DNA of 64,000 nt, taken from contig NZ_CP053187.1 in NCBI RefSeq assembly GCF_013046825.1, forward strand, positions 341,501 to 405,500. Reading direction: 5' to 3'. This document shows, one piece after another, positions 8,303 through 38,358 of the stretch. The notes beneath the pieces are model-generated. The model did not search any database, was not told where the DNA came from, and was given only the letters and a program-made list of their open reading frames with translations. Both the position numbers and the translations under genes were made by a program. Position 1 is the stretch's first letter, and the number at the start of each line of letters is the position of its first letter. The stretch is from Turicibacter sanguinis. GTDB taxonomy: Bacteria > Bacillota_I > Bacilli_A > MOL361 > Turicibacteraceae.

Positions 8303-8305
8303 CAA

Positions 8306-9418
8306 TTATCCCCCTATCACTGCTACTTCATATAATGATTCTAATTTTTCTTGATAGCTGGCTATCCCATAATTCTCACAAACAAACTTATGACCTCTTC
8401 TGGATAATAAAGAACGTTTTCGAACTTGATTTTTAAGTTTAATCATTTCTTCTATGAATTGTTTATACTCTCCCTGATAAACTAATACGCCTCTATCATC
8501 TTTCAGTAATTCTCCGATACTACCAACATTCATGCTTACGACGGGTAATGAGTTAACCATTGCTTCTAAAATAACCATTGGCAAACCCTCATAAACCGAA
8601 GGAAGAAAGAAAACATCAATCAATTGATAAAATTGTTTAATATCTTCCTGAAAACCAGTAAAAATAAAGTACTCTTGCAAAGAATGTTCCTGAATTAACT
8701 GTTTAATCTCTCCCTCTTGTTCACCACTTCCCACAAGAAGGATTTTACAATCATTAAATCTTCCTTTAAAGTTCACAAATTCTTTTATGAAAGGAATCAA
8801 TCCCTTAGCTTCCGTTAATCTTCCAATAAATCCGAATATAAAATCATTCTCTTGAATTCCATAAAAATTCTTAATTTTTTGAATATTAATTTGAGGAAGC
8901 TTTATTAAGTCTGTTGTATCAATAGCATTAGATAAAATATAGGAGCTATCTTCATCAAAATAATCAGAGTTTAATACATAGTGATCCTTAACTAATTCCC
9001 CGCACAAAATATTATAATCAACACGTGGTCTTAAATAAGAATCAATTTTTTTATTGAGATTATCCCCTATTAACCAAGGGTAACAACTATGGACGTGAGA
9101 AATAACTTTCACATCTAATCGATACAATCTTTTTGTTAAATACGCCGCTAACGTAGCCGTGTTATCATGAGCATGAATTAATTTAATTTGATGAACTTTT
9201 ATCGTTTGCTTTAATTGGTGAAGCGTTAAAGGAAGTTTAGCTTTTGAAAAATTCATGCTATACGCTTGAATGCCTTCCTTTTCAAACACTTTCTTTAACA
9301 CCTCTCCACCTGTCACAACAATCGGCTCATACTTTGTTAAATGCTTGCAAATTAACAGTGCCATCTTTTCAGCGCCACTTAACTGATTCATCGGTAAAAT
9401 ATGTAGTACTTTCTCCAC
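8306..9418 (-). CDS. Family 4 glycosyltransferase
   Basis: The 370-residue product begins VEKVLHILPMNQLSGAEK and has FGFIGRLTEAKG near residue 195 and PSVYEGLPMVILEAM (EX7E) near 274, typical of GT4 GT-B enzymes. I prefer the GTG at 9416-9418 because GAGGGGG lies six bases before it. The ATG at 9422-9424 abuts that ribosome site and cannot use it. It follows the bifunctional PglD/EpsD-like gene by 12 bases. Confidence 0.8.
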   Translation of the reverse strand: MEKVLHILPMNQLSGAEKMALLICKHLTKYEPIVVTGGEVLKKVFEKEGIQAYSMNFSKAKLPLTLHQLKQTIKVHQIKLIHAHDNTATLAAYLTKRLYRLDVKVISHVHSCYPWLIGDNLNKKIDSYLRPRVDYNILCGELVKDHYVLNSDYFDEDSSYILSNAIDTTDLIKLPQINIQKIKNFYGIQENDFIFGFIGRLTEAKGLIPFIKEFVNFKGRFNDCKILLVGSGEQEGEIKQLIQEHSLQEYFIFTGFQEDIKQFYQLIDVFFLPSVYEGLPMVILEAMVNSLPVVSMNVGSIGELLKDDRGVLVYQGEYKQFIEEMIKLKNQVRKRSLLSRRGHKFVCENYGIASYQEKLESLYEVAVIGG

Positions 9419-9430
9419 CGTCATCCCCCT

Positions 9431-11182: not shown

Positions 11183-11199
11183 TTTATTCTCCCTTTCCC

Positions 11200-11796
11200 T
11201 TAGACGATTCTTCTCTTAAACTTCTCCATCGTGACTTGCCCTTCCTGGCTAATTCCCTCCCGCTTCAATACCTTAATAACGGTCATCCACAGGATTTTTA
11301 AATCTAACCCAAAATGACGATGGTCCACATACCAGACATCCAAATTAAAACGTTCCTCCCAAGAAACCAAATTTCGACCGTTCACTTGGGCCCATCCCGT
11401 TAATCCAGGTCTGATTTCATGACGTCTAATTTGATGCTCATCATATTCTAGCAAATACTCAACAAGCAGTGGGCGTGGTCCCACAAAACTCATTTCTCCC
11501 TTTAAAATATTAAATAACTCTGGAAGTTCATCCAAACTTGTTTGACGGAGAAATTGGCCAAATTTCGTGAGACGCATCTCATCTGATAATGGCTGCCCCT
11601 TTTTATCGACCGAGTTACTCATTGTTCGAAATTTATAGATTTTAAAAATTTGATTATCTTTCCCAACACGTTCTTGTACAAAAAATACGGGCCATCCCAT
11701 CTTAATCCCAACTAAAACAGCGACTAGCAGTATAACAGGCGATAATAAAATAATTAAAACAAGACTCATCACAATATCAAAAACTCTCTTTCGCAT
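11200..11796 (-). CDS. Initiating sugar-phosphate transferase, PglC/EpsL type
   Basis: The 198-residue product has one N-terminal membrane segment (residues 10-30), then [27 protein letters not shown] and [13 protein letters not shown], the signature of small PglC-type phosphoglycosyl transferases. These load the first sugar phosphate onto undecaprenyl phosphate. The neighbours encode all the steps to UDP-diNAc-bacillosamine, the PglC donor, so that sugar is the likely first residue. AAAGGGGAATAAGG precedes the ATG. Length is typical for the minimal enzyme without the polytopic N-terminal domain of WbaP-type transferases. Confidence 0.88.
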
Positions 11797-14878: not shown

Positions 14879-15619
14879 TTATTTTCTTCCAAATGCTTTT
14901 TTACCAAATGATTTTCTTCGCATAGGTTCCTCTTGCGTATAAGTATAATATTGATATCCTAAATAACGAGCAGACTCCACTGGTACCATCGTTAAAACGG
15001 CTCCAAGTAATCTTGCATTGACCTTTTCTAGATGATTCTTTGCCTGTTTCGTTAGCTCGATTTGCGTTTTTCCCGAAGCTACAACTAATAAGGTTCCATC
15101 TGTTTTAGTTGCAAGTAAGGCTGCATCCGTCACAACACCAACCGGTGGCGTATCATAAATCACGACATCATATGTTTCTTTTGCTTTTTCAAAGAAATGA
15201 TTCATAGCACGTGAACTTAAAAGTTCTACTGAATTAGGCGGAATCGGGCCCGTTGTTAAGACACTTAAATTTTCTTTCACTGCGTGTACCACTTCAGAAA
15301 TTTCTAAACGACTCGCCACTACATTTGTAAGTCCACGTGAGTTTTGTAAGTCAAAAAACTTATGTAATTTGGGACGACGTAAATCAGCATCGATTAATAA
15401 GACTTTTTTTCCTGTTTGAGCATAAGCAACGGCTAAATTAACTGATGTCGTGCTCTTTCCTTCTGATGGTCCTGGACTTGTAATCGTCAATGTTTTGATA
15501 GTTTCATCTAATCCTGAGAATTGAATATTCGTATATAAGGTTCGATAGGCCTCAGTAGCAGGAGACTTTGGACTAATCAAACTAATAACGTCATTATGCT
15601 CGACTTGTTTTCGCTTCAT
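14879..15619 (-). CDS. BY-kinase of the main eps operon (CpsD/CapB/EpsB type)
   Basis: The 246-residue cytoplasmic kinase has Walker A (TSPGPSEGKSTT near residue 47), Walker A' (VLLIDADLRRP near 73) and Walker B (VVIYDTPPVG near 152). A C-terminal tyrosine cluster (YLGYQYYTYTQEE) is the autophosphorylation site. YRTLYTNIQF near the N terminus is the adaptor contact. It needs the CpsC-type membrane partner, encoded just upstream with a 26-base overlap. The pair controls chain length and export of the polysaccharide. Confidence 0.9.
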   Translation of the reverse strand: MKRKQVEHNDVISLISPKSPATEAYRTLYTNIQFSGLDETIKTLTITSPGPSEGKSTTSVNLAVAYAQTGKKVLLIDADLRRPKLHKFFDLQNSRGLTNVVASRLEISEVVHAVKENLSVLTTGPIPPNSVELLSSRAMNHFFEKAKETYDVVIYDTPPVGVVTDAALLATKTDGTLLVVASGKTQIELTKQAKNHLEKVNARLLGAVLTMVPVESARYLGYQYYTYTQEEPMRRKSFGKKAFGRK

Positions 15620-16322
15620 CCTTTTTCCCCTCCATCATTTTTTGTGCTCGATATTTTGAGAGTTCAATATCAGTATTTGGAATGACTCCCATAATTGGAA
15701 TGCCCAGTTCATCTTCTACTTCTTTTGCTGTTTTAAAAGTTGTATCTAAAACTTCTAATAAAAGGATGATTCCAATTGCTAAAACAACTCCAATCATGCC
15801 CCCTATCATAATACTTCGATTTAAATTCATTCCTGATGTCACATACGGGACTCGTGCTTCATCAACGACAGATAAATCAATATCAGACATCATTTTCTTT
15901 ACCATATCCATTAAAACTTCTGCTGTGATATTAGCAACTTTGGCAGCTGACTCTGCATTTGTATGTGTCACCGATAATTTGACGAGTGATCCATCCCCAG
16001 CACTGATACTAATACTTCCTAATGAACCACTACCTACTGCCTCAGCTATTTGTGTTCGCACTGACTGACTATTTAACATGCCAGTAAATGTTGTGATCAC
16101 ATTACTTCCAACAGAAAAATCACGACTACTCGTCGTCAATCCTGTGCTTTTATAGTGCATTAATAAAGTCGTTGACGCTTGATAAACTGGAACATAACTA
16201 CTATAGGTACGGTATCCCATTAATCCAGCTAACAAACCACCTAATAGGACGATGAGCCACCAACGTTTTTTTAATAAATCAATGTACTCATAGAAATTAA
16301 TTCCTTTTTCAGCTATTTGCAT
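15594..16322 (-). CDS. Polysaccharide chain-length regulator / BY-kinase activator (CpsC/EpsA type, Wzz domain)
   Basis: The 242-residue product has a membrane helix near residues 20-40, an extracellular Wzz-like domain, a second helix near 175-195, and a cytoplasmic tail with LGIPIMGVIPN that activates the kinase. It is the first gene of the eps operon, 238 bases after the pseudokinase gene. RBS AGGGGGATAAAAAG precedes the ATG. The C-terminal tail beyond the activator motif is rich in charged residues and overlaps the kinase gene. Confidence 0.88.
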   Translation of the reverse strand: MQIAEKGINFYEYIDLLKKRWWLIVLLGGLLAGLMGYRTYSSYVPVYQASTTLLMHYKSTGLTTSSRDFSVGSNVITTFTGMLNSQSVRTQIAEAVGSGSLGSISISAGDGSLVKLSVTHTNAESAAKVANITAEVLMDMVKKMMSDIDLSVVDEARVPYVTSGMNLNRSIMIGGMIGVVLAIGIILLLEVLDTTFKTAKEVEDELGIPIMGVIPNTDIELSKYRAQKMMEGKKDEAKTSRA

Positions 16323-24717: not shown

Positions 24718-24979
24718 TATCTTGCGTAATAAATATTAAAATATCACCTTGAGCTTTTTTAGCAGCTTCATGTCTAGTTAAACCATGATTAAAATTTTCG
24801 AATCGATAAACATTATCAAATAATTCTTTAGCTAAATTATAACTGTTATCTTTTGATTTACTAATTGGAGCAATAATTTCAACATATCCATTATATTCTT
24901 GTTCACTAATGCTTTTCTTTAAGTTTTTTAAATACTTTTCACCATTGTGTACAGGTAATATTATCGAAACAGATTTCAA
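24718..24979 (-). pseudogene. Family 2 glycosyltransferase, 5' fragment cut by IS3 copy 2
   Basis: The first 87 codons of a GT2 gene remain: SVSIILPVHNGEKYL, then FITQDM, where rhamnosyltransferase-like GT2s usually read FLTQDA. Immediately afterwards the sequence becomes the right inverted repeat of IS3 copy 2, and the frame stops at 24704 after a few element-derived codons. It starts with TTG behind GAGAGGAAGTG. The 3' part is not elsewhere in the window, so it was lost. The protein would be inactive. Confidence 0.85.
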
Positions 24980-24995
24980 TTCTTCACTTCCTCTC

Positions 24996-25652
24996 TTAGT
25001 AAGCTCCCCTTCTTAACAAAACACTTTCAATAGTTCTAAAGATAATTTTCATATCTAAAAAAATAATTCTATTATTAATATAATAAATATCCATTGTAAC
25101 CCTTTCTTCGTATGAAGTATCACTTCTACCAAATGCTTGCCACATTCCTGTTAAACCTGGAGTTACTGATAGATATAAATCAGCATTTTGTCCATATTTC
25201 TCTAACTCTGCTTTTACAATTGGTCTTGGACCCACAATGGTCATTTCACCCTTTAAAACATTAACTAATTGTGGTAACTCATCTAAACTCGTCTTTCTAA
25301 TAAAATTTCCTATCTTTGTTATACGAGGATCATTTTTTAATTTAAATGTTTCAGCATACTCTTTTTTTTGTTCGGGAGTAAATAGATTAAACATTTGATC
25401 TGCATCTTTAAACATCGATCTAAATTTATATACTGGAATTACTTTTCCTTCTTTACCTAATCGATTATGTGAATAAAAAACTGGACCTTTAGGATCTTCT
25501 AGTTTAATCAAAATTGAGATTATTAAAAATACTGGAGATAATATTATTAAACCAATACCACATCCTAAGATATCTATCAAACGTTTAATAAAAAAATAAC
25601 TTTTATTTAAATAATTTTTCATATCTTTAGATTTATCATACAAAAATTCCAT
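24996..25652 (-). CDS. Initiating sugar-phosphate transferase of decayed cassette 2
   Basis: The 218-residue product has one membrane helix (about residues 32-52), then YKFRSMFKDAD, DELPQLVNVLKGEM, IVGPRPI and TPGLTGMWQAFGRSD, the catalytic domain of bacterial sugar transferases. It is larger than the PglC-type enzyme of the main operon and closer to the C-terminal domain of WbaP/CpsE-type galactosyl or glucosyl transferases. It follows a BY-kinase gene but is separated from it by a strong hairpin. Its next gene is an IS-cut fragment, so this locus no longer builds a full repeat unit. TGAGGTGAGAAT precedes the ATG. Confidence 0.82.
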   Translation of the reverse strand: MEFLYDKSKDMKNYLNKSYFFIKRLIDILGCGIGLIILSPVFLIISILIKLEDPKGPVFYSHNRLGKEGKVIPVYKFRSMFKDADQMFNLFTPEQKKEYAETFKLKNDPRITKIGNFIRKTSLDELPQLVNVLKGEMTIVGPRPIVKAELEKYGQNADLYLSVTPGLTGMWQAFGRSDTSYEERVTMDIYYINNRIIFLDMKIIFRTIESVLLRRGAY

Positions 25653-25684
25653 ATTCTCACCTCAGGTCAATATTCTTCTAATCA

Positions 25685-25730
25685 AAAAGGTTTCTTAAGT
25701 TTATCAAATGATAAAGTTAAGAAACCTTTT
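25685..25730 (-). terminator. Long hairpin between BY-kinase 2 and its sugar transferase (terminator or attenuator)
   Basis: A near-perfect palindrome covers 46 bases: AAAAGGTTTCTTAA on one arm, an inner TTTATC / GATAAA stem, and TTAAGAAACCTTTT on the other, with a four-base loop and one C-C mismatch. On the minus strand it ends in T5. It lies 113 bases after the kinase stop and 33 before the transferase start, so it would end kinase transcripts or gate expression of the transferase. Confidence 0.75.
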
Positions 25731-25842
25731 AGACATATATAAAAACAATCAAAAAATATTTTGACTTATCCCATATCTGTATTTGTTCTATTTAACTCTA
25801 CCCTAATTTTTTAAACTCTCTGTTTATCTATTCACGAACTAA

Positions 25843-26547
25843 TTATCGACGTTTACGTCTTTTTTTCGTCTCTACCTGTTCTTCATAGTTATAATATTGA
25901 TAACCGTAGTATCCCTTTTTACTAACCGGCATCATTGTCATCACGACCCCAATGATTCGTGCATTGACTTGTTCTAATAATTGCTTCGCGCGTTTTGCCC
26001 CGTCAATTTGCGTTTTATGAGAAGCAACCGTTAAAATCGTCCCATCTACCATCCTAGCCACAATGGCCCCATCCGTTACCACTCCTACTGGTGGTGTATC
26101 AATTAAAATGACATCAAAATGTTGTGATAGCAGTTCAAGTAACTGTTTCATTGCTTTAGATTCCAGTAATTCCGCAGGATTTGGTGGAATTGGACCAGAA
26201 GTCAAGACTTGAAGATGACTTCCGGTGATTTGTAAAACATCCTCAAATTTTTCTTGCCCTGTTAAAACATTTGTAAGTCCGACTGCGTTCGATAACTTAA
26301 AAACTTTATGAACGCGTGGCTTTCTTAAATCTGCATCAATAATTAATGTACGCTTTCCACTTTGAGCAAACGTCTCAGCAACGTTACATAATGTCGTCGT
26401 TTTCCCTTCACCCGGTCCAGAACTTGTAATTGAAATCGTCTTTAAATCCCCATCCACATTTGAAAACTGTAAATTAGTACGAAGTGTCCGATACGCCTCA
26501 GATATCGGTGACTTCGGTTGTGTTAATGTGATAACGTCTAAACTCAT
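25843..26547 (-). CDS. BY-kinase of cassette 2 (CpsD/CapB type)
   Basis: The 234-residue kinase has intact motifs: TSSGPGEGKTTT (Walker A), LIIDADLRKPRVH (A'), VILIDTPPVG (Walker B), and a C-terminal YYGYQYYNYEEQ tyrosine cluster followed by a basic tail. I start at 26545-26547, eight bases after AGGGGG; the ATG two codons upstream is too close to that site. It differs from the main-operon kinase but is close to the kinase at 36946-37647. It is probably functional as an enzyme even though its locus is decayed. Confidence 0.88.
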   Translation of the reverse strand: MSLDVITLTQPKSPISEAYRTLRTNLQFSNVDGDLKTISITSSGPGEGKTTTLCNVAETFAQSGKRTLIIDADLRKPRVHKVFKLSNAVGLTNVLTGQEKFEDVLQITGSHLQVLTSGPIPPNPAELLESKAMKQLLELLSQHFDVILIDTPPVGVVTDGAIVARMVDGTILTVASHKTQIDGAKRAKQLLEQVNARIIGVVMTMMPVSKKGYYGYQYYNYEEQVETKKRRKRR

Positions 26548-26560
26548 CCTCATGTCCCCC

Positions 26561-27256
26561 TTACTTCATCTTTTTGCTTAATTCAAGATCTGGAATAGCT
26601 CCGATAATCGGTAATCCTAGATGACGTTCAATATCCGTCGGTGTTTTATACGTACGATCTAAAAACTCTAAAACTAAGACTAATCCAACACTGACCATCA
26701 TCCCAAGAACACCCGCAATCGCGATATTCATCATTTTATTCGGTGAGACTGGATTGACAGGAATTTCTGCTGTATCAATCGTTGATACATTATCAACCTT
26801 CATCATACTTTTTACTTCTTTTTTAAATACATACGCCACTGTATTCGCAATATTAGCTGCTAACTGAGGATTCTCATTTTTTACTTTAATTTGAATGACT
26901 TCGGTATCACCCACACCAGAGACACTCAACATATCCTGAACTTGTGATGGAGTTAAATCTAAATCTAACTTTTTAATCACATCTTCAGCAATACTACGAC
27001 TTTTTACAATTTGACTATACGTATTAACGAGTTTCTGACTCATCTGCATATCGCTATACGTCATCGTTGTTTCTTGATTTTGCTTATAATTGACTAACAT
27101 TGTCGTTGATGCCTCATAATTTGGAACCAACACAAAAAAGCTAATAATTCCTGAGGCAATAACAGCAATCACCGTTATGCTAAAAATCATTAACCAGCGT
27201 TTTTTGAGCATGCTAAAAATCTCTCGTAAATCGATTTCGTACTCGTTATTCTCCAT
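26561..27256 (-). CDS. Chain-length regulator of cassette 2 (CpsC type)
   Basis: The 231-residue protein has EYEIDLREIFSMLKKRWLMI before a first membrane helix (about residues 20-40), an extracellular domain with MTYSDMQMSQKLVNTYSQI, VNPVSPNKMMNIAIAG before the second helix near 175-195, and the tail LGLPIIGAIPDLE. It pairs with the kinase 13 bases downstream. The ATG at 27254-27256 follows GGGAGTTGAAC; 26 further codons upstream are open but lack a ribosome site. Confidence 0.88.
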   Translation of the reverse strand: MENNEYEIDLREIFSMLKKRWLMIFSITVIAVIASGIISFFVLVPNYEASTTMLVNYKQNQETTMTYSDMQMSQKLVNTYSQIVKSRSIAEDVIKKLDLDLTPSQVQDMLSVSGVGDTEVIQIKVKNENPQLAANIANTVAYVFKKEVKSMMKVDNVSTIDTAEIPVNPVSPNKMMNIAIAGVLGMMVSVGLVLVLEFLDRTYKTPTDIERHLGLPIIGAIPDLELSKKMK

Positions 27257-27450
27257 GTTCAACTCCCTTTCCCATTTAACCCCTGTCATCCTAACCCATT
27301 TCAAATGACAGTAAAAATATCCTGTTTTATACAAACAAGCTCACTATAACACGTTTTTTTTACATTTCCACCTATAATACGACACTTTTACCTATTTTTT
27401 TCTAAAAAACGTTTTCTATAGTTAAGTTAATTAATGAGTTTTCCGTTGTT

Positions 27451-27528: not shown

Positions 27529-29184
27529 ATGAAAAAAAATTTGAAGGTTTTAATTTGGATTTTTAAACACGGAAAATCAGTCTTACCGCTCATCATCCTG
27601 ACATCTATCTTAGGGGGGATTTTATCAGGAATCGGAGTTTATTCAGCATTAGTTTCGAAGTCATTAATTGATGCTGCAACAAGCGGTAATATGAATTTAG
27701 TGATTAAATGGCTCATTGTAATGGGGGCCATCTACTTTATTCGTCTTGGATTAAATATCGTGAGTTCATTAGCATCAACTTATAGTTCAACAAAGCTCTT
27801 TAATGAAATTCAAAAAAAGCTGTATATGTCCTTAACCTATAGCGAATGGATGGCGCAGTCGAAGTATCACAGTGTTAATTTACTGACGCGAATTACGAGT
27901 GATGTGGGGACCGTCTCAGGAGTGATTTTATCCTCTCTAAACTCAATTATCTCACTATCCGTAACGCTTGTGACTTCCTTCCTCGCCCTACTTTATTTAG
28001 ACCCAACCATTGCGATTTTTACAGTGACGATTACACCGATTTATCTCATTTTTAGTAAAATGTATAGCCGACGTTTGAAAACCATCTATAAAGAGGTACA
28101 AGATCAGGACATCAATTATCGTGCCTTCATCCAAGAATCTATTCAAAATCTGATGATTGTGAAGACATTTTGTCATGAAGAGCAAAATTTTGAAACATTG
28201 AATCAGCATCATCAAAAGAAACTTCAATTAAATTTGAAATCAACGCGATTCAGTTTATATTCAAGCATGATTTTTGGAACGATTTCTTTCTTTATTTATT
28301 TTGCAATTTATGGATTTAGCGCAATTAAGCTAACGACTGGTGCGCTAACATTTGGTAGTATGACCGCTCTCCTCCAACTTTATGGAAAAGTTTCAGGGCC
28401 ACTTAGCAGCTTTGCTGGAATCGGAAAGCAGTTTATTCATGGAATTGCAGCTGCAGAGCGCTTGATTGAAATTGAAAATCTGCCAACAGAACGCATTAAT
28501 AAAGACTTAAGTTCTTTGCATATCGAAAAACCGGTCATTGAATTTGAAAATGTCTCATTTGATTACACGCAAAAACAAAATATATTAAAAAATATCACCT
28601 TTAAGATTAAACCAGGTGAAACCGTTGCTTTAGTCGGGCCTTCAGGTCAGGGTAAAACGACAATTATTCGACTGATTTTGTCACTCATTAACGCGAACAA
28701 AGGAAAACTAACCATTCAAAAACAAAAGATTAGTCGCGAACACCGTCAGTTAATTTCTTATGTTCCACAAGGAAATACCCTATTCTCAGGAACGATTCGA
28801 GAAAACATCACTTTCGGAACGCCACATGCCACAGATGCAGAAATTATCGAAGCGGCTAAACAAGCATATGCGTGGGAATTTATTAATAAACTTGACGATA
28901 AACTAGACACTCGTATCGGAGAAAAAGGCCTTGGATTATCAGAAGGTCAGGCACAACGAATCGCGATTGCCCGTGCTTTCTTACGTCGAAAGCCAATTTT
29001 AATTTTGGATGAGGCAACCTCGGCACTAGATAGTCAGACCGAAATAGATGTTCTAGAATCCGTTAAAAATCTACCTCATCAACCAACATGCATCATTATT
29101 ACACACCGCCCATCCGCCCTTGAAATCTGTGACCGCGTTTTAAAACTTGAAAGTGGCTACCTTCAAGAAGAATTAGCTGGATAA
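27529..29184 (+). CDS. ABC exporter, fused permease and ATP-binding domain
   Basis: The 551-residue half-transporter has a six-helix type IV exporter domain (residues 15-300) and an ATPase domain with GPSGQGKTT (Walker A, near 368), YVPQGNTLFSGTIREN (Q loop), LSEGQAQRIAIARA (signature) and ILILDEATSALD (Walker B). It should work as a homodimer exporting a lipid, drug or peptide. There is no C39 peptidase domain. It sits 2.2 kb from the RiPP operon and is of the size and type of lasso-peptide exporters, but it is on the other strand with IS30 debris between, so a link is only a possibility. GGGGGGAACACGTT precedes the ATG. Confidence 0.88.
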   Translation: MKKNLKVLIWIFKHGKSVLPLIILTSILGGILSGIGVYSALVSKSLIDAATSGNMNLVIKWLIVMGAIYFIRLGLNIVSSLASTYSSTKLFNEIQKKLYMSLTYSEWMAQSKYHSVNLLTRITSDVGTVSGVILSSLNSIISLSVTLVTSFLALLYLDPTIAIFTVTITPIYLIFSKMYSRRLKTIYKEVQDQDINYRAFIQESIQNLMIVKTFCHEEQNFETLNQHHQKKLQLNLKSTRFSLYSSMIFGTISFFIYFAIYGFSAIKLTTGALTFGSMTALLQLYGKVSGPLSSFAGIGKQFIHGIAAAERLIEIENLPTERINKDLSSLHIEKPVIEFENVSFDYTQKQNILKNITFKIKPGETVALVGPSGQGKTTIIRLILSLINANKGKLTIQKQKISREHRQLISYVPQGNTLFSGTIRENITFGTPHATDAEIIEAAKQAYAWEFINKLDDKLDTRIGEKGLGLSEGQAQRIAIARAFLRRKPILILDEATSALDSQTEIDVLESVKNLPHQPTCIIITHRPSALEICDRVLKLESGYLQEELAG

Positions 29185-29188
29185 ACAA

Positions 29189-29227
29189 AAAAGTCATTAA
29201 ACTCACGGTGAGTCTAATGACTTTTTT
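29189..29227. terminator. Bidirectional terminator between exporter and methyltransferase
   Basis: The stem AAAGTCATTAAACTCAC / GTGAGTCTAATGACTTT has one mismatch, almost no loop, and is bordered by A-runs and T-runs. It serves both convergent genes. Confidence 0.88.
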
Positions 29228-30014
29228 CTATTTTCTTAAAAACACTATATCTCGTTACTTTTTCTGTTATCAGTTCACTATTTTTATCAAAAATAGCTGA
29301 TGTGTAATCATCTTGATTATACGAACCGAACACTTCATAATTCGAAGCAACCTTCGTATCAGTTACGGCGTATTGACTAAAATGAACAACCAATAATCCC
29401 TCTGGTTTTACATAGCTATCTAACTCAGCAACCTGTGTTTCAAACTTTTCAAATGGGTAGATTTTTTTTAAACTTTTGATGCCTTTTTCTGTAACCAGAT
29501 GCGGTGTTCGTTGTAAAACAGCCATGCAAAAAACAAGATCGAATGGTCCATATTTATTTATTTCACTCGGTTTTGACGTAATAAATTTAATGTTATCATC
29601 TACCGAATGACTTCTACAAATTTCTAAACTATGTGGATTAATTTCTGCGCCAACAATCGTTGCATTCGGAAAATACTGACGAAGTGTTAAGACTTCTTCT
29701 CCCGTTGAGCAACCATAAGATAAAATTTTAAGATTTTTATGTCCATCAAAGTAGTCACGACATCCCGAAAAAATAATAGGATAACGATCCATTCCAGTGT
29801 ATGGTGTGGTCTGTTGCAAACGAGTCGATTTAAAAACCTTCATATACATAATAGCACGATAATTCTTATCACAGACTAAACACTTCATGCTATTTAAACC
29901 TTTAACCCCAAAATCTAAACTTCCAATAACCACCCTAATAAATACATTTTTAGATGACCGATGAGTCCTAACCCATTGCCGTCCCCTTGTTAACCCTAAA
30001 AATCTAACTCCCAT
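29214..30014 (-). CDS. SAM-dependent methyltransferase, class I
   Basis: The 266-residue protein has the SAM-binding motif KILSYGCSTGEEVLTL near residue 95 (GCSTGEE as in CheR-type enzymes), GAEINPHSLEICR about 25 residues later as the acidic motif II, and FDLVFCMAVLQRTP as motif IV. A CLVCDKNY segment near residue 45 has two cysteines. It lies alone in its orientation and ends in a terminator shared with the exporter. The substrate is unknown; methylation of a small molecule, sugar or peptide are all possible. Confidence 0.7.
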   Translation of the reverse strand: MGVRFLGLTRGRQWVRTHRSSKNVFIRVVIGSLDFGVKGLNSMKCLVCDKNYRAIMYMKVFKSTRLQQTTPYTGMDRYPIIFSGCRDYFDGHKNLKILSYGCSTGEEVLTLRQYFPNATIVGAEINPHSLEICRSHSVDDNIKFITSKPSEINKYGPFDLVFCMAVLQRTPHLVTEKGIKSLKKIYPFEKFETQVAELDSYVKPEGLLVVHFSQYAVTDTKVASNYEVFGSYNQDDYTSAIFDKNSELITEKVTRYSVFKKIEKSH

Positions 30015-30257: not shown

Positions 30258-31300
30258 TTGTAATATTAAGTGCGACATATAAAAAAACTCATAAATAGAA
30301 TCTTTGTTATAGAATGAAGTTAGCATACCAAATTCTAAACAAGGAAATCTATTTATGAGTTATCACCATCTTAACACATTTTAGCGTACACGTATAAAAA
30401 TTCTTTCAAAATGGGCTATTCAACGAGACAAATTGCAAGCCAATTAAATCGCATCATTCAACCATTGCTCGTGAATTGAAACGAAATACTCAACAGACCT
30501 ATCAGGCTGAGCTAGCAGAAGAATTAGCTAGGGAACGTCGCTTAGCTTGTCATCGTCCAGAGATAAAGTCTGAAGAACTCATTCAAACTATCCAACACTA
30601 TTTAAAGCTAACTTGGTCGCTTGAACAAATTTCTAATATCGTTTTAAAAGGTGTTATTTCATTTAAAATCATTTATCGTTGGATTTACGATGGCACGATT
30701 TTATCAGGAGATTTAGGTTGTCTAAGACAAAAAGGAAAACGTCGAAAACCTCGAGAAACACGTGGACGCTTTAACATTGGAACCTCGATTCATCAACGTC
30801 CAAAAGAAGTCAAAAAACGTGAGACGTTTGGGCACTGGGAGTTGGATACTGTTGTTTCAAGTCGTGGCAAAAGTAAAGGATGTTTAGCGACCTTTGTTGA
30901 ACGTCAAACACGTTTTTATATAGTCATTAAAATAGACAATCGCTCAGCATCCGAAATGTACCGAACGATTCATCAGTTATATGAACATTTTCCTAAAAAC
31001 ACCTTTAAAACCTATACGGTTAATAGCGGAAAAGAGTTTGCTTGTTATTCCAAAGTAGAAGCCGACTTAAAGGTTCCTGTTTACTTCGTAGATGCCTATT
31101 CATCTTGACAAAGAGGAAGTAATAAAAATGCCAATGATCTTCTTCGAGAGTTTTTCGCGAATAAGACAGATTTAGCACGAGTCAGTGATAAAGAGATTAA
31201 TGAGGCACTCCCCCTCATAAATCATCGACCACGAAAATGTCTAGGTTGTAAAACTTCATTCAAGCTATTTCATGAACAACTATTGCATTTGTATTGACAA
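30258..31300 (+). mobile_element. IS30-family element, inactivated
   Basis: Imperfect inverted ends (TTGTAATATTAAGTGC at left; TTGTCAATACAAATGC at right on the minus strand) bound about 1.04 kb of IS30-type transposase sequence. Three lesions in the transposase make it inactive. The right end has a second, truncated copy at about 45100-45199. Confidence 0.75.
30355..31297 (+). pseudogene. IS30-family transposase with three inactivating lesions
   Basis: An ATG at 30355 opens MSYHHLNTF followed by a TAG where homologs read Glu (ERTRIE). Around 30454 one base is missing (AATCGCATCATTCAAC for AATCGCCATCAT), shifting the frame before TIARELKRN. At 31106-31108 a TGA stands where family members have Trp in YSSWQRGSN. 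Between these, HWELDTVVSSRGKSKGC (first Asp), TVNSGKEFA (second Asp changed to Ser; usual TxDNGxEF) and NHRPRKCLG are recognisable. The normal stop is at 31295. Confidence 0.88.
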
Positions 31301-31314
31301 TTCATCATATAAAA

Positions 31315-31347
31315 AAATCCATTAAGCCTTATAGCTTAATGGATTTT
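31315..31347. terminator. Terminator of the RiPP operon
   Basis: The stem AAATCCATTAAGC / GCTTAATGGATTT with a six-base loop has A-runs and T-runs on both sides. It lies directly after the stop of the last precursor gene on the minus strand and close to the end of the IS30 remnant. Confidence 0.88.
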
Positions 31348-31349
31348 TA

Positions 31350-31613
31350 TCAAGACATTGGATTATTTTCCTCACTTCTTGGCGTATAGCAACAACAAGT
31401 ATTCCCATGTTCAGGACAGCCAACACTCATGAAATGATCATTTGGTTTTGGATTAGAATCATTTGTATGATTTCCAGAATGACTTCCACTAGGATTGTGA
31501 TGGCAGTAGTGTTTCTCACCTCTTGCAACACTCATTTCACATTCACAACCATATTCACCATGTGTCTTATCCAATTCTAAGTTTGAAATAATTGGCGTTT
31601 CCCATTTCTTCAT
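31350..31613 (-). CDS. Candidate RiPP precursor peptide A1 (lasso-type leader, Cys/His-rich core)
   Basis: The 87-residue peptide starts MKKWETPIISNLELDKTHG. This fits the paeninodin-type leader pattern (W..P near the start, Leu, then Thr two residues before the core), recognised by B1 proteins. Cutting after His19 would give a core starting Gly with Glu at core position 8, a possible macrolactam acceptor. The core is about 68 residues, far longer than lasso cores, and holds eight Cys and seven His, including TCCCY. It ends NPMS; paeninodin-type kinases phosphorylate a C-terminal Ser. GGAGG stands ten bases before the ATG. It has no database identity I can recall. Confidence 0.65.
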   Translation of the reverse strand: MKKWETPIISNLELDKTHGEYGCECEMSVARGEKHYCHHNPSGSHSGNHTNDSNPKPNDHFMSVGCPEHGNTCCCYTPRSEENNPMS

Positions 31614-31819
31614 CTTTAATCATCCTCCAATAAATTATATATTATATTAATGACAACGATAACTCCATCAAACATTACTGGCAAAATACTTCAATGGATT
31701 CTTCATATCATGTCAATTAATACCCCCATCACTCACATTTTTATAAGACTATTTATGCTTAAGCACTGGTAACGGTTATCCCCAAATAACGTATCCAGGC
31801 ATGTTTCTCTAAATTCATA

Positions 31820-32068
31820 CTAAGATAAAGCACCGCAGACTGTCGAAGCTACATTACTATCCACCCAGTAATCTCTATCATTTGGATGTTCTGGATGATT
31901 ATCTTTACCTGCATTACTATGTAAGTGACTCATAATCCCACTACAGTCATTTGTTTTAAAATCACAGTAATTACAATAAATATATGAGATTAGCGCTGGT
32001 TCAATACCATCCTCATCTGTTTTATTTATAGTTAGATTAACTACTTCTGGCTTCATCCACTGTTTCAT
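31820..32068 (-). CDS. Candidate RiPP precursor peptide A2 (lasso-type leader, zinc-finger-like core)
   Basis: The 82-residue peptide starts MKQWMKPEVVNLTINKTDEDG, sharing K.W..P....L....KT..G with A1 and hence the leader pattern. The remainder has CNYCDFKTNDC followed by SHLHS, spaced like a C2H2 finger (C-x2-C-x12-H-x-H), and later VCGALS with a C-terminal Ser. No Asp or Glu stands at core position 7-9 under the Thr -2 rule, so a lasso ring is unlikely here. It starts 19 bases after the leader-peptidase gene, which supports its role as a substrate of the same operon. Confidence 0.65.
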   Translation of the reverse strand: MKQWMKPEVVNLTINKTDEDGIEPALISYIYCNYCDFKTNDCSGIMSHLHSNAGKDNHPEHPNDRDYWVDSNVASTVCGALS

Positions 32069-32087
32069 TTTTCATCTCTCCTTTTCC

Positions 32088-32540
32088 TTAAACAAGAATT
32101 TCAGCATTTGAAAAATAGGCAACTTGAATAAAGTGATCTTTCTCATACTGACCCGTGACAATCATTTCCCCACAGCGAATCCAAGCATGAGCCTTCATAT
32201 TGTTTAAATCATCTTTATTAACTCCAAGATAAATAGTGGTTGCTATTTTTTTACGCTTTAAAAAATGTTGTACCAGCATCGCACGAATGAGGCACTTACT
32301 TTCCCACGGAGTATATTTGCACACCAGTAAGACTAATCCTCTAATCTCTTTCGCAAGTCGATACACTTCAATTGATTCTTCTTTAGCAGACTCTTTTTTA
32401 GGAACTCCTAGTCGTTTTTTGACATATTTAAATGGTAGATACAACACCATAAAACGATAAACTCCACTTAAAATAAATGCTTCAATAAACATTAGCTGTT
32501 TTCTAAACCCAAGCTCCCAAAAAATCTTTAATTTATGCAT
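32088..32540 (-). CDS. Lasso-type B2 leader peptidase (transglutaminase-like fold)
   Basis: The 150-residue protein shows the B2 pattern: Cys83 in WESKCLIRAMLVQHFL and His118 in KAHAWIRCG, the nucleophile and general base of this papain/transglutaminase-like family, followed by the usual terminal strands (MIVTGQYEKDHFIQVAYF). The family removes the leader of lasso precursors after the conserved Thr-x. Its first eight bases overlap the B1 stop. An N-terminal hydrophobic stretch (residues 17-40) is common in split B2 proteins. Confidence 0.85.
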   Translation of the reverse strand: MHKLKIFWELGFRKQLMFIEAFILSGVYRFMVLYLPFKYVKKRLGVPKKESAKEESIEVYRLAKEIRGLVLLVCKYTPWESKCLIRAMLVQHFLKRKKIATTIYLGVNKDDLNNMKAHAWIRCGEMIVTGQYEKDHFIQVAYFSNAEILV

Positions 32541-32823
32541 GAATCATCACAAGGTTAGCGTGATGCATATTGTGTAATAAATCTTTAACTGATGCCTCAC
32601 ATTCTGCACGTTCTACCTCATACTCATTCATTAAGGATGTGATAATCGTTTCAACAGACGTTGGAGTTTTCATTAATTCCCAAACATCTCCGGCTACCCC
32701 ATTTAACATAAAATACTGACCTTTTTCAAGATCCATCATCACTTTTTCTCCATCTAAATCTGTTGCATCAATTTCATGATTACGTTCAACGACTGTAGAT
32801 AATTTCACACAATGACAACACAT
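32533..32823 (-). CDS. Lasso-type B1 / PqqD-family RiPP recognition element
   Basis: The 96-residue protein is a PqqD-like domain: a beta-rich DLDGEKVMMDLEKGQYFMLNGVAGDVWELM core and helical C terminus. PqqD-type B1 proteins bind the leader peptide and hand it to B2. The order B1-B2 with a short overlap is that of lasso clusters in Firmicutes. The N terminus carries CCHC (residues 2-5), unusual for the family and possibly a metal site. Confidence 0.85.
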   Translation of the reverse strand: MCCHCVKLSTVVERNHEIDATDLDGEKVMMDLEKGQYFMLNGVAGDVWELMKTPTSVETIITSLMNEYEVERAECEASVKDLLHNMHHANLVMIHA

Positions 32824-32835
32824 ACTAGCGCCTCC

Positions 32836-33771
32836 CTAAGCTTTTAATCTTTCTTCATTTACTAAGAATGTTTCTTCTAACCATTTAATTTGTGCATCCA
32901 CCGTCATCACACCTTTTGGGCGATAAATACGGTAGACTGGAATCTCTTTCGCAATCTCAACGCACTTCTTAAAGTACTCCGGATTCACCCCCGCAAATCG
33001 TTTCATCTCAATTCGATAAATATTGTTATAAATCGTCATCAATTTCTCCTGACCTTTTAACAACTCCACCTGAATTTCATGAATATCATCCACCACTTTT
33101 AACTCAACAATTCCGTGAAGTGGAACCTTATCATAAACAAATGATTCGCGTGCAGGGATTAAATATTTCATCTGTGTATCGCTCATCAAAGTTTTAAACT
33201 CATCTAGCTTGTACCCTAGCTGATGCATAGCGTCTTGGCACAGTTTTTGTTGTGGAAATCCAGGATGAATAAAATGACGTTGGCCGACCTCAACAGAAGA
33301 CACATCGTCTGCCACAAATGGGTATCCCTTTAAACGAAGTGCCGATGTAATCGTCGATTTCCCAGCTCCACGATCTCCTGTGAAAATAATCCCTTTCCCA
33401 TCAAAAACAATCGTTCCCCCATGAATCGCAATCATGTTACGCTGTAACATAATCATCCCAAGACAACTTCCAAGTAAGTACTGCTTTGCCATTGATAAAT
33501 CTGCGCCATGACATAACTCAATTGAAATCAAGTTCCCATCTTGCATCCAATATGTCGCTATTTCTGGAACATGGAACCACATACTTTCATTGGTATAGTC
33601 AGAACGACGACCCAATTCAATTTGTTCATGAATTTCAACCGATACCTGATTGACATCAATCAAAACATCATATTCATGTTCGTGTAGCTCATCTAATCTC
33701 ACAAGTTCAGGACATTCGATGTCTGATAAAACCTTTAATCCATAAACTAGATAACTAAATTTTTTCCCCAT
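32836..33771 (-). CDS. HprK-like precursor-peptide kinase (paeninodin-type)
   Basis: The 311-residue protein has an HPr-kinase-like fold: HGG at 117-119, P-loop GDRGAGKST at 132-140, ADD at 154-156, and HPGFPQQKL near 169. HprK-like enzymes in paeninodin-type lasso clusters phosphorylate the C-terminal Ser of the precursor. Both candidate precursors here end in Ser. It is the first gene of the operon, 12 bases before B1. It lacks the usual HPr-binding N domain. A true HPr kinase is less likely given this context. Confidence 0.82.
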   Translation of the reverse strand: MGKKFSYLVYGLKVLSDIECPELVRLDELHEHEYDVLIDVNQVSVEIHEQIELGRRSDYTNESMWFHVPEIATYWMQDGNLISIELCHGADLSMAKQYLLGSCLGMIMLQRNMIAIHGGTIVFDGKGIIFTGDRGAGKSTITSALRLKGYPFVADDVSSVEVGQRHFIHPGFPQQKLCQDAMHQLGYKLDEFKTLMSDTQMKYLIPARESFVYDKVPLHGIVELKVVDDIHEIQVELLKGQEKLMTIYNNIYRIEMKRFAGVNPEYFKKCVEIAKEIPVYRIYRPKGVMTVDAQIKWLEETFLVNEERLKA

Positions 33772-34069: not shown

Positions 34070-35365
34070 TTATTTATTCATTTTAGTACTAATGTTGACA
34101 ATATCATATAAGTCAATGATGCCATCTCCATTTAAATCGAATTTTTCATTCCATTCGGAATCTTGACTGGTCACCTGATATAACGTAGCTAATAGCTCAA
34201 GATCCCTCTCATCGATCACTCCATCGTTATTTAGGTCTAAATGACCTAAAACAAGTACTTCTTGACTTAAAAGTCTCCCGTCATAGTTACTATCGCGAAC
34301 TTCGACTGAAATAACTTGTCCACTGTACTCTTTTGTTACCACAAAGGTTGAAGCAGTCGCACCAGGGATTTCTGTTCGATCCGCAAACCATTGATACGTG
34401 ATATTTTGCATCCCAGCTGGTAATCCACTTAATTCTGCCGTTAATGTTTCTCCGATTTTTGGAGTTCCTTTTAACGTAAGAGTCCCTGTTAATTCAGGTA
34501 ATAACACGCGAGTCGTTGAAGTGGATAAGTGTTCGATATAATCATCAGCTGTCACAACCACACTAATAATGTGTCCCACATGTTCTGGCTTTAACTCTAA
34601 AGTAGCTGAAGTGGCTCCTGAAATCTCTTAATCCTCCATTAACCATTGATACTTTAACTGAGAGGTTTGAGCATTTTCTACAACTGCTTGTAAGGTTTCT
34701 CCCTGTCTTGGAGTTCCTTCTATGCGGACGGTTCCTTGTAATTTATTCGTTAACACAGTCTTTTCTGAACTTGAGACACTTCCAATATAATTGCTTGCTC
34801 GAACTTCGACTTGAATCGATTTCCCAACATAGTCTTCTTTTAATTCTAAAGTCTGCTCCATTCCATCGTAAACTTCTTGTCCATCTACTAACCATCTATA
34901 TTTTAATCGCTCTGCATCTTGAGGGAAATCTTTCGTCGTCGCCGTTAATGTGTCTCCCACTTTTAACGTATCACTCAATTCTACTGAACCTGTTAGATGA
35001 GGAATACTTTCATTTTCCTGACTTCTTAAAACAGTAATCATTTTTGTAATCACCGATCCCGTTGGGATATGTTCTAATTTAATCGTTAAGTCACCCTCAT
35101 AATCTTTCAAATCAAGTTCGCCTGAATTTGGATCATCTGGATCTGGATATTTATAAATAAATGCGATTATAACATTTCCATCTAAGTCAAAATAGACAGT
35201 TAAATCCATATCATCATCTTCGGTCACTTCAAGATCATTTTGTGAATGTTTAATAAAAGATAATTTAAAGTTGCCTAAATCATCTGGAATATACTCTTCA
35301 TCAAACTCATTAATATACTGCACAGGGAAGAGATATTCCTCCATAGCGATAGGATTAATCAGTTG
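34070..35365 (-). pseudogene. Surface protein fragment with Ig-like repeats and C-terminal dockerin-like module
   Basis: The coding sequence runs in one frame from about 35365 to 34070 but has a TAA at 34628-34630 between LMED and EISGATSATLEL. The part before the stop has Ig-like repeats (LTGSVELSDTLKVGDTL, YRWLVDGQEV, LQGTVRIEGTPRQGETL). The part after it has another (LTGTLTLKGTPKIGETL, YQWFADRTEIPG) and ends in two calcium-loop repeats, DLNNDGVIDERDL and DLNGDGIIDLYDI, as in dockerins. The 5' end, with any signal peptide, is gone and replaced by an IS3 stub. The intact protein was probably secreted and bound a cohesin or cell-surface partner. Confidence 0.82.
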
Positions 35366-35473
35366 AGTTTCATCTTTCTTCGGTTTAGACTCATAATAAT
35401 AAGTGCTACGAGGCACATTAAGGACTTTGCACATCGCTGAAACTGAATATTTGTGTGTATTGTTTTTAATCAC
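34628..35473 (-). pseudogene. Chimeric reading frame: IS3 OrfB stub joined to surface-protein fragment
   Basis: The first 36-41 residues (SVSAMCKVLNVPRSTYYYE and following lysines) are the start of an IS3 OrfB. From about residue 40 the protein becomes the acidic, Ig-like surface-protein segment. The junction is in frame, giving a 281-residue frame that ends at a TAA. It arose by deletion or recombination between an IS and a surface-protein gene. A functional product is unlikely, as it has neither a transposase core nor a signal peptide. Confidence 0.8.
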
Positions 35474-35843
35474 ATTTATCTTTGTCCTAAGATCAGCGCG
35501 GCTTGCTTTAAAATATCATTTTCCATTTCCAATTGCTTAACTTTTTTACGAAGTTGGATTAACTCCTGTTCTTCTTCTGAGCGGTTATCTTTCTCCTTAA
35601 AAGAACCTGTAGAAGTTGACTGTTTAATCCATTTATCGAGTAAAGACGATGAGATATCGTATTCACGAACAATATCACATTTACGTTTCCCATTTAAATA
35701 AAGCTGGACTAATTGGTTTTTAAATTCATCTGTATACGTACGGCGTGGTCTACGAGTTTTAGTTTGGGTCATGTTAAAGCTCCTTTAGATTGATATTATT
35801 TATAATTCTACATGACCTTAAAAAAACTGTCTAATTAATTGTA
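35345..35843 (-). mobile_element. Truncated IS3-family element
   Basis: It contains an intact orfA and only the first codons of orfB. The missing 3' half includes all catalytic residues. At the right it borders a GT8 gene fragment after GGTTACAATTAATT on the minus strand. It is a different IS3 lineage from the tandem pair at 22-24.7 kb. The exact ends are not fixed by a matching inverted repeat. Confidence 0.65.
35476..35772 (-). CDS. IS3-family OrfA of a truncated element
   Basis: The 98-residue protein starts with a basic stretch (KTRRPRRTYTDEFKNQLVQL), has a helix-turn-helix (CDIVREYDISSSLLDKWIKQ) and a heptad coil (ELIQLRKKVKQLEMENDIL). It is full length for OrfA. Without a complete orfB it cannot support transposition by itself, but it could still bind related ends. 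Confidence 0.85.
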   Translation of the reverse strand: MTQTKTRRPRRTYTDEFKNQLVQLYLNGKRKCDIVREYDISSSLLDKWIKQSTSTGSFKEKDNRSEEEQELIQLRKKVKQLEMENDILKQAALILGQR

Positions 35844-35845
35844 AC

Positions 35846-36088
35846 CTATCCAATAATTTCTTGTATATTAACAGCCTGTATCCAGATTGGGAGACCTCTA
35901 CCGTATGTAAAACAAATTTCATCTAATCTCTTTTTATTTTGTTCGCTAATTCCACCATCTAAAATATACAAAGTAATACTATTTGCATCTTTGTTGTTTT
36001 GAAATAAAGACACCATCGAAACACCTAGAATCTCCGCAAACTTATTATCTGATGCATAAACAATATGAAAATCTGAATTTATTTCCAT
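35846..36088 (-). pseudogene. GT8-family glycosyltransferase, 5' fragment
   Basis: About 80 residues remain: FHIVYASDNKFAEILGVSM and SITLYILDGGISEQNKKRL, the start of family 8 (lipopolysaccharide galactosyltransferase-like) enzymes. The DXD metal site would lie downstream and is missing. The fragment ends at IS3 sequence. AAGGTG precedes the ATG at 36086-36088. This parallels the IS-cut GT2 fragment at 24718-24979. Confidence 0.8.
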
Positions 36089-36134
36089 ACATTCACCTTC
36101 TTCAAATACTGTATTCTTTTTTATAAAAATAAGT

Positions 36135-36788
36135 TTAACTTGCGTTCTCATCACCTAGCAGTGCTGGAATTGTCATTAAAATCAGTTTAATATCTAACCA
36201 TAAATTTCTTGTTTTAATGTATTCGATATCTAGATCCACCCACTCATCAAATCCAATATGATTACGTCCACTCACTTGCCAAATACAGGTTATTCCAGGT
36301 TTTACAAGTAATCGTTGCATTTGATAATCATTATAAAGTTTTACCTCACGAGGAATCGCGGGACGTGGTCCTACAAGACTCATCTCACCTTTTAGTACAT
36401 TAATTAACTGAGGTAATTCATCTAAGCTTGTCTTTGGAATAAATTTTCCTACTTTCGTAATCCGTGGGTCATCTTTGATTTTAAAAACAGGACCTGTTTG
36501 TTCATTTAAATGCATCAATTCTTGAATTCTATCCTCAGCATCCACATACATACTTCGGAATTTATACATTTTAAAAGTGTTAGGATACTGTCCTACACGG
36601 ACTTGTTTAAAGATAATCGGTCCCTTAGGATCTTCAATTTTAATCAAAATGGAGACTATCAACATTAAAGGAGAAGCTAGAATCAGACCTGTTATTGCAA
36701 CGACTATATCTAATAATCGTTTTAAGAAAAGATATAGCTTTGTATCATTTACAATTTGTTTACCTTGTTTCAATAAAACTATTTCCAC
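36135..36788 (-). CDS. Initiating sugar-phosphate transferase of decayed cassette 3
   Basis: The 217-residue product has a membrane helix (about residues 25-48), YKFRSMYVDAEDR, KTSLDELPQLINVLKGEM, LVGPRPA and KPGITCIWQVSGRN, the catalytic pattern of undecaprenyl-phosphate sugar phosphotransferases (WbaP/CpsE C-terminal domain type). It starts with GTG behind AAGGTG. It differs from the cassette 2 enzyme, so the two cassettes came from loci for different polymers. The following glycosyltransferase is cut, so there is no complete pathway here. Confidence 0.82.
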   Translation of the reverse strand: MEIVLLKQGKQIVNDTKLYLFLKRLLDIVVAITGLILASPLMLIVSILIKIEDPKGPIIFKQVRVGQYPNTFKMYKFRSMYVDAEDRIQELMHLNEQTGPVFKIKDDPRITKVGKFIPKTSLDELPQLINVLKGEMSLVGPRPAIPREVKLYNDYQMQRLLVKPGITCIWQVSGRNHIGFDEWVDLDIEYIKTRNLWLDIKLILMTIPALLGDENAS

Positions 36789-36817
36789 TACTTCATCACC
36801 TTCTATCTAATTCGATT

Positions 36818-36862
36818 TTAAAAAAAGAGACTATATCTAACATGAAGATAGATTTAGTCCCT
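36818..36862 (-). terminator. Terminator between BY-kinase 3 and its sugar transferase
   Basis: On the minus strand GGGACTAAATCTA pairs with TAGATATAGTCTC across a nine-base loop and is followed by seven T. It occupies the same place as the hairpin at 25685-25730 in cassette 2, between kinase and transferase. Confidence 0.85.
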
Positions 36863-36945
36863 TTTCAAACGCAAAAAACAGAATCATACCATGATACTCA
36901 AACTAATCTATCTTAATGTATTAGATTGTTTCTTTCTCCCTGAAC

Positions 36946-37647
36946 CTAATTTCGTCTCTTTTTCTTTAATTCATTTTCTTCATAGTAACCATAATACTGA
37001 TACCCGTAATACCCTTTTTTACTTACTGGTATCATTGTCATCGTTACGCCTAAAATACGAGCCCCAACATTCTCAAGTAGTTTTTTTGCACGTTTTGCCC
37101 CATCAATATCAGTTTTCCCCGATGCCACTACTAAGATGATTCCATCTACAATGGCTGATAAAATAGCCGCATCTGTTACCAATCCAACTGGAGGTGCATC
37201 AATTAAAACAATGTCATATCTTTTTTTTAACACTTCCAATAAATCTTTCATTCTTTTTGACCCCAATAACTCTGATGGATTTGGGGGAATCGGACCACTA
37301 GTAATGACTGTTAAATCAGATCCAGCCACTTGAATCACATCTTCAATCTCACTTTGTCCTGATAGTAACGTCGTGACACCTTTTGTATTCGTTAATTTAA
37401 AAATCCTGTGAAGACGCGGCTTACGCAAATCACAATCTATAATCGCAACTCTATTTCCAGCCTGAGCAAAGGTTTCTGCTAAGTTTGAAATGGTCGTTGA
37501 TTTTCCTTCTCCAGGCCCTGAACTGGTTACACAAATAGTTTGTAAATTTCCATCGATATTTGAAAATTGAATATTCGTACGAAGGGTGCGATATGCCTCG
37601 GCAACTGGTGATTTTGGATTTGATATTGTAATTAAGTCACTCATCAT
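36946..37647 (-). CDS. BY-kinase of cassette 3 (CpsD/CapB type)
   Basis: The 233-residue kinase has TSSGPGEGKSTT, VAIIDCDLRKPRLH, IVLIDAPPVG and a C-terminal YYGYQYYGYYEEN cluster with a KKKRRN end. It resembles the cassette 2 kinase closely. RBS AGAGG lies seven bases before the ATG. The activator gene upstream is frameshifted, so unless the frame is restored or a paralog acts in trans the kinase lacks its membrane partner. Confidence 0.88.
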   Translation of the reverse strand: MMSDLITISNPKSPVAEAYRTLRTNIQFSNIDGNLQTICVTSSGPGEGKSTTISNLAETFAQAGNRVAIIDCDLRKPRLHRIFKLTNTKGVTTLLSGQSEIEDVIQVAGSDLTVITSGPIPPNPSELLGSKRMKDLLEVLKKRYDIVLIDAPPVGLVTDAAILSAIVDGIILVVASGKTDIDGAKRAKKLLENVGARILGVTMTMIPVSKKGYYGYQYYGYYEENELKKKRRN

Positions 37648-37662
37648 TTCACATCCTCTTTC

Positions 37663-38358
37663 CTATTTAAGTTTTTTTTCCATTTCAATATCTGGGATAG
37701 CTCCAATAAGCGGTAATCCTAATTGACGTTCAACATCTGTTGGAATCTTCAAGGTACGATCTAAAAATTCTAATATAAATGCAAGCCCTACACTCACCAT
37801 CATACCAAAAACACCTGCAATGGCCATATTCATGATTTTATTTGGTTTGACAGGACATTCAGGTACTTGGGCTGTATCAATGGTTGACACGTTGTCAATT
37901 TCCATAATGTTTTTAATTTCTTTTTTAAAAACATCCGCAATCGTATTTGTCAGTAAAGTAGCGGTCTCAGGATTTGTATCACTAACTTTAATTCGAATGA
38001 TTTCGGTATCATTCACCTTAGAAACTGTAATCTTTTTTGATAATTCTTCAGCTGTTAAATCTAAATTTAATTGCTTTATCACAGCTTCAGAAATACTTCG
38101 ACTCTTAATAATTTCACTATAAGTATTCACAAGTTTTTGGCTCATGGTTAAATCATTATAAGTCATAATACTTTCCTGATTTTGTTTATAACTAACTAAT
38201 AACGTTGATGAGGATTCATAAACAGGTGATAAAATAAAAAAAACTAATAACCCCTGCTATAATGACAGAAGTTGCGGTAATACTACAAATCATTAACCAA
38301 CGTTTTTTTAGGACATTAAAAATGTCTCGCAAATCAATTTCATATTCTGTATTTTCCA
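37663..38358 (-). pseudogene. Chain-length regulator of cassette 3 with frameshift in an A8/T8 tract
   Basis: An ATG at 38356-38358 with AGGGGAGTTGAAC opens a CpsC-type frame (EYEIDLRDIFNVLKKRWLMI) that runs into the first membrane helix and stops about 47 codons later. The rest continues one frame off, from SPVYESSSTLLVSY through to LGLPLIGAIPDIE. The break falls at eight T (minus strand) near 38236; seven would restore the frame and match the cassette 2 protein. It may be a pseudogene, a phase-variable gene or a sequencing error. An ATG at 38164-38166 gives a 167-residue part without the first helix. Confidence 0.82.

Follow-up and report, generated by a model that had tools for sequence, protein, structure and literature searches.

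A paeninodin-like RiPP operon of Turicibacter sanguinis that encodes no lasso cyclase

We analysed a 64-kb stretch of the Turicibacter sanguinis genome, hereafter called the window, which carries a five-gene operon on the minus strand (31350-33771) encoding a kinase (K), a RiPP recognition element (B1), a leader peptidase (B2) and two precursors (A2 and A1). Neither the operon nor the genome encodes a lasso cyclase (C). The best supported reading, to which we give a probability of roughly 0.7, is that this RiPP system derives from a paeninodin-like lasso pathway of Clostridia type, which lost its cyclase and kept the rest, and that B2 would release linear, C-terminally phosphorylated peptides. 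The initial annotation of this DNA had already suggested a leader-cleaved, phosphorylated and non-lasso product. It covered neither a methyltransferase (MT) and an exporter as parts of the system nor the linear polyphosphorylated peptides (LPP), a family already published in 2026 (PMC13381572).

All five ORFs were intact. Their order and the single terminator were found as first described; RNA folding predicted a hairpin 3' of A1 (-19.5 kcal/mol, z -5.1) with a T-rich 3' arm. K and B1 are separated by 12 bases, B1 and B2 overlap by 8, and gaps of 19 and 206 bases lie between B2 and A2 and between A2 and A1, respectively. The assignment of the accessory genes to the paeninodin type was borne out by family searches. 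B1 scored 84.3 bits with NF033536, the Bacillota lasso PqqD family (curated cut-off 80), and was closer to PbaB1 (9x90, 52.7 bits) than to LppB (9x8z, 25.2 bits). B2 scored 84.5 bits with the lasso B2 family NF033537 (curated cut-off 33), and its residues C83 and H118 were invariant. Searched with HPr-kinase models, K remained below the general HprK cut-offs and the match was confined to the P-loop region. A full-length alignment with the kinases of lasso-type clusters gave 27-46% identity: 27-29% with those of lasso clusters that have a cyclase, 40% with that of cluster L052 and 46% with that of cluster L111, both described below. Residues H117, K138, D155 and D156 of K were invariant in this alignment, and the catalytic residues of lasso kinases are His-Lys-Asp-Asp (PMC9266682). 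K is therefore a candidate kinase of paeninodin type, whose expected target is the C-terminal Ser in A1 and A2.

Table 1 Features of the operon and its surroundings, in window positions.
Feature	Positions	Strand	Size or basis
K, HprK-like paeninodin-type precursor kinase	32836-33771	-	311 aa; identity to lasso-type cluster kinases
B1, discrete RiPP recognition element, paeninodin-type	32533-32823	-	96 aa; NF033536
B2, transglutaminase-like cysteine leader peptidase	32088-32540	-	150 aa; NF033537
A2, precursor, leader WMKPEVVNLTINKTD, 64-aa core, Ser at end	31820-32068	-	82 aa; leader motif
A1, precursor, leader WETPIISNLELDKTH, 69-aa core, 7 Cys + 7 His, Ser at end	31350-31613	-	87 aa
Intrinsic terminator 3' of A1	31313-31348 (approximate limits)	-	predicted fold, T-rich 3' arm
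IS30-family transposase remnant, between A1 and MT	30476-31290	+	rve domain; frame broken at 31106-31108
MT, class I SAM-dependent methyltransferase	29214-30014	-	58-62% identical to MT within L111 cluster
MsbA-like ABC exporter, convergent with operon	27529-29184	+	49% to L111 exporter, 42% to L052 exporter

That C is missing, as first proposed, was confirmed at two scales. No cyclase fragment was found in the 64-kb window, and a check set beforehand, a search of the whole genome (a single 3.0-Mb contig with a listed completeness of 100%), found no lasso-type macrolactam cyclase and only ordinary asparagine synthetases. Two large Asn_synthase proteins scored 495 and 455 bits against an asparagine synthase cut-off of 267, and both begin with MCG, one of them after a short extension; two other weak Asn_synthase matches were QueC- and GuaA-like sequences. 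Against the lasso cyclase model NF033535, lasso cyclases used as controls (from clusters L052, L110 and L008) scored 343-389 bits (L052, 346 bits; L110, 343 bits), and they stayed under the asparagine synthase cut-off.

The initial annotation had also reasoned from gene spacing that there was no room for a lost C between K and B1 or between B1 and B2. The short K-B1 gap and the B1-B2 overlap are real, but they cannot exclude a loss, because the C gene of relatives stands upstream of A/K, adjacent to B1, or behind K at the exporter, and at neither of these two junctions. A better argument is provided by a sister cluster, L111 (contig G832:C37, Clostridia), another cluster without C of the kind the initial annotation had proposed to look for. 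L111 encodes K, B1, B2, MT, an exporter and three precursors in the order A-A-K-A-MT-B1-B2, with two nucleotidyltransferase genes first and the exporter gene on the opposite strand. Identity to the window proteins was 46% for K, 47% for B1 and 46% for B2 (MT and exporter, Table 1). No cyclase was found along the 32-kb contig of L111 and no lasso cyclase in the G832 genome, an assembly that may be incomplete; the Asn_synthase matches there were an AsnB of 613 aa and an asparagine synthase of 528 aa, each scoring above the asparagine synthase cut-offs. A 75-aa ORF with Cys, His and Trp lies beside the L111 exporter (15397-15624); it has no WxxP leader and could be another substrate.

When K, B1 and B2 sequences were joined for a tree, L111 paired with the window (support 96/92) inside a 100/99 clade that also contains a Lachnospiraceae group and the cyclase-bearing clusters L052 and L110, and the Bacillales paeninodin clusters formed a separate 100/100 clade. 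A tree of B1, which is too short to resolve the pairing, placed the window in the same Clostridia clade, away from LppB. The pairing of two cyclase-free clusters beside cyclase-bearing ones argues for an old loss of C, not a local accident, and the simplest reading would be one loss in the common ancestor of these two clusters.

Sampling of 391 class members by means of the B1 family yielded L111 as the only firm sister cluster. Three other stretches (L113, L116 and L117) look cyclase-free, but a lasso-type C is encoded elsewhere in their genomes and they were not counted. L114 (G577), L115 (G599) and L118 (G531) may be additional clusters without C but were not retained as firm cases: no Ser-ended WxxP precursor was found beside B1, and the assemblies may be incomplete. 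L115 is weakly similar, and L118 has no kinase nearby. The L114 stretch (5500-11200) carries B2, an exporter, a kinase, a precursor (MKQWKRPQIW..LCWPF, the last residue not being Ser), B1 and a nucleotidyltransferase, and is possibly cyclase-free.

A close relative carrying the operon together with C was not found. K was present in 0/4 sampled other Turicibacter species, and the relative found was the cyclase-free L111 instead. B2 occurred in this genome only, among 392 sampled phylum members. The absence of K from four congeners and the uniqueness of B2 suggest that the operon was gained horizontally. Apart from L111, MT was found in no further genome among 226 order members and 391 class members. 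Scans of viral contigs gave no match to K or MT, and no convincing match was obtained for A1 homologs in plasmids or A2 homologs in phages. Another genome of the same family (G006) carries a B1-B2-cyclase cluster (L040, 6500-11200), unrelated to that of the window, with an adjoining class V aminotransferase-like gene and a possible precursor of 78 aa rich in Arg and Thr.

A1 and A2 display the features of paeninodin-type precursors: a WxxP leader, a Thr near the cleavage site and a C-terminal Ser. The leader form W-x2-P ... L-x4-T is common to 25 precursors of cyclase-bearing clusters, with Tyr in place of Trp in 2/25. A terminal Ser was found in 30/30 compared precursors (A1, A2, three from L111 and the 25 from cyclase-bearing clusters), a set chosen by eye from a motif search in which three left-out matches were not Ser-ended (Lys in L112, Phe in L114, Trp in L077). 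Kinases of the paeninodin type phosphorylate this terminal Ser while it is still part of the precursor, ahead of B2 and C (PMC9266682). Core starts were taken two or three residues past the leader Thr, giving two cleavage registers. Cores were 59-69 aa long in the five cyclase-free precursors versus 17-52 aa in the 25 cyclase-bearing ones, and contained 2-7 versus 0-2 Cys; both contrasts are descriptive, the rows being related. An Asp or Glu at core positions 7-9, the acid used for the lasso ring, was present in 25/25 cyclase-bearing precursors and, in either register, in neither A2 nor the first L111 precursor; A1 (E8) and two L111 cores retain such an acid at position 8 or 9. A1 and A2 were below the threshold of the precursor model NF033524, and one L111 precursor scored 24.6 against 27. 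The five cyclase-free cores had no mutual alignable similarity beyond chance.

The genes for MT and the exporter are separated from the operon by the IS30 remnant, and the terminator also lies before MT. We assign both to the RiPP system because the same genes stand in the L111 cluster; the exporters of L111 and L052 are likewise on the strand opposite their clusters. In Azospirillum and Bacteroidetes, MT relatives adjoin B1 and K in clusters that do have a cyclase, so MT probably serves lasso-like systems with a kinase as a tailoring enzyme and does not stand in for the cyclase. Assigning its class by structure failed, the model being too poor for a fold search (pLDDT 55); weak sequence matches with solved structures were scattered over class I methyltransferases, including WbdD (E about 0.1). 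In an Azospirillum oryzae plasmid, a lasso-like cluster beside glycosyltransferase genes (L149, 4494-10903) encodes a methyltransferase, a 2OG-Fe(II) oxygenase, a nucleotidyltransferase and a cyclase, and a similar cluster (L151) has an Asp/Asn beta-hydroxylase.

A possible but doubtful extension would give MT a larger part and treat these systems as a separate RiPP class, sister to the paeninodin lassos. The products would be long Cys/His-rich peptides whose terminal Ser is phosphorylated and then capped or crosslinked by MT (e.g. as methylated phosphate, His or carboxylate); in polysaccharide loci they would act at the surface or bind metal.

The operon is flanked by IS remnants, which show that the region has been rearranged locally. 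Just upstream, at 34070-35772, the start of an IS3-type transposase is fused in frame to a truncated gene for an Ig-like/dockerin surface protein, which may be a sign of IS-mediated deletion. The system could be decaying, with such remnants on either side and MT cut off by the terminator and the IS. Taken further, IS activity would have deleted C from a lasso cluster and left a non-functional remainder, a scenario that we consider unlikely. The IS30 remnant between A1 and MT, the parting of MT from the operon and the IS3-type fragment 1-2 kb upstream of K would all fit, as would the location of C in L110, adjoining the convergent exporter and thus near the present position of the IS30 remnant. 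Decay is nevertheless difficult to reconcile with five open ORFs and retained catalytic residues, with a sister cluster at 44-45% identity that is also cyclase-free and has the same MT, and with precursors that depart in part from the lasso core pattern and keep the terminal Ser.

It is also improbable that the lactam ring was exchanged for another ring or crosslink, made on the Cys/His-rich core by MT or an enzyme encoded elsewhere, either as a new ring chemistry or to give a peptide that binds metal. Unlike lasso cores, these cores have as many as 7 Cys and 7 His, and the MT partner is conserved, but no candidate cyclase, radical SAM enzyme or oxidase was seen within the L111 cluster or adjoining the operon of the window, and the cores could not be aligned beyond chance. 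A C2H2 zinc finger in A2 (CxxC-x12-HxH) was considered and rejected: the AlphaFold2 model was poor (pLDDT 53), and the pattern arose in 5% of shuffles (17% for L111b).

The RiPP cluster is bracketed by two cassettes of sugar transferase, CpsD and Wzz genes (24900-27400 and 36000-38250), 70% identical over 1.24 kb; these polysaccharide gene names rest on reading of the sequence and not on a family search of each. More CpsD/Wzz-like genes are located at 14.9-17.2 kb of the window. The cluster thus appears to lie within a long polysaccharide locus, in agreement with published work that connects paeninodins and LPPs with capsule loci.

For the linear, phosphorylated product that we favour, we infer the chemical steps, methylation, export and linear state from the gene content. 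B1 would bind the WxxP leader of A1 and A2, K would phosphorylate the C-terminal Ser of the precursor, and B2 would cut after the ..KT-x end of the leader. The freed core of 64-69 residues would remain linear, with disulfides or a bound metal possible. MT may methylate the core, and the convergent ABC transporter would export the peptide in a cell-surface polysaccharide setting. Phosphorylation of paeninodin precedes cleavage and needs no cyclase, so the other steps could have remained workable after the loss of C.

A precedent for a linear product exists in the LPPs, a cyclase-free phosphorylated RiPP family described by Popov et al. 2026 (PMC13381572), which has a YxxP leader, the signal-peptidase-like protease LppS, phosphorylation at Ser3 and an NTP transferase (PMC13381572). 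The window system resembles LPPs in being cyclase-free, in combining an RRE, an HprK-like kinase and an MsbA-like exporter, in its capsule locus and in its expected linear phosphopeptide. It differs by its WxxP leader, B2, C-terminal Ser and MT, and no NTP transferase was found in the window. Despite the shared cyclase-free make-up, discrete RRE, kinase, exporter, capsule locus and long cores (PMC13381572), membership of the operon in the LPP family is very improbable, as the leaders of A1 and A2 are both WxxP and lack the motif YxxPxVLxHQxIxFETxxS, the peptidase is B2 in a genome with no archaeal-type signal peptidase (no TIGR02228 match for the SpI-like LppS), and B1 is far closer to PbaB1 and outside the LppB clade. 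The window system would instead be LPP-like in its working and built with paeninodin parts. In two Paenibacillus stretches (L055, 2693-5511; L062, 2590-5471), a second kinase-B1-exporter set adjoins a complete paeninodin lasso cluster, an arrangement also described for LPP, and the B1 of this second set is 52-80% identical to LppB.

Paeninodin-type lasso clusters (PadeK/ThcoK kinases; e.g. Priestia pB2.3, L008) share with the window a kinase, B1, B2, an exporter, the WxxP leader and the terminal Ser of the precursor. Unlike them, the window has no cyclase, its cores are Cys/His-rich and 64-69 aa long versus 17-52 aa, two precursors stand at the 3' end of the operon, and there is a methyltransferase. 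Because C is lacking, the system falls outside the lasso definition. A search of open-licence papers found no description of a cyclase-free combination of WxxP leader, B2 and kinase. The paeninodin-type lineage would also have lost the lasso cyclase, separately from the lineage of the published LPPs. A kinase and a leader peptidase without a cyclase would then be a recurring route to linear phosphopeptides, and such clusters will escape genome-mining tools for which a cyclase is required.

The closest cyclase-bearing relatives are L052 (JAAYPK010000097) and L110 (G700), both from Clostridia, with K, B1 and B2 at 35-44% identity. Like the window, they have the exporter on the opposite strand and adjoining Wzz/BY-kinase genes; they differ in encoding a lasso cyclase and in their shorter cores, and MT was not found in them. 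L111 shares with the window K, MT, B1, B2, the exporter, long Ser-ended precursors and the absence of a cyclase, and differs in its third precursor, its gene order and its two nucleotidyltransferases. Comparing the window and L111 with L052 and L110 can test directly which product arises from a phosphorylated lasso pathway without the ring step, and which purpose the terminal-Ser phosphate serves in capsule loci.
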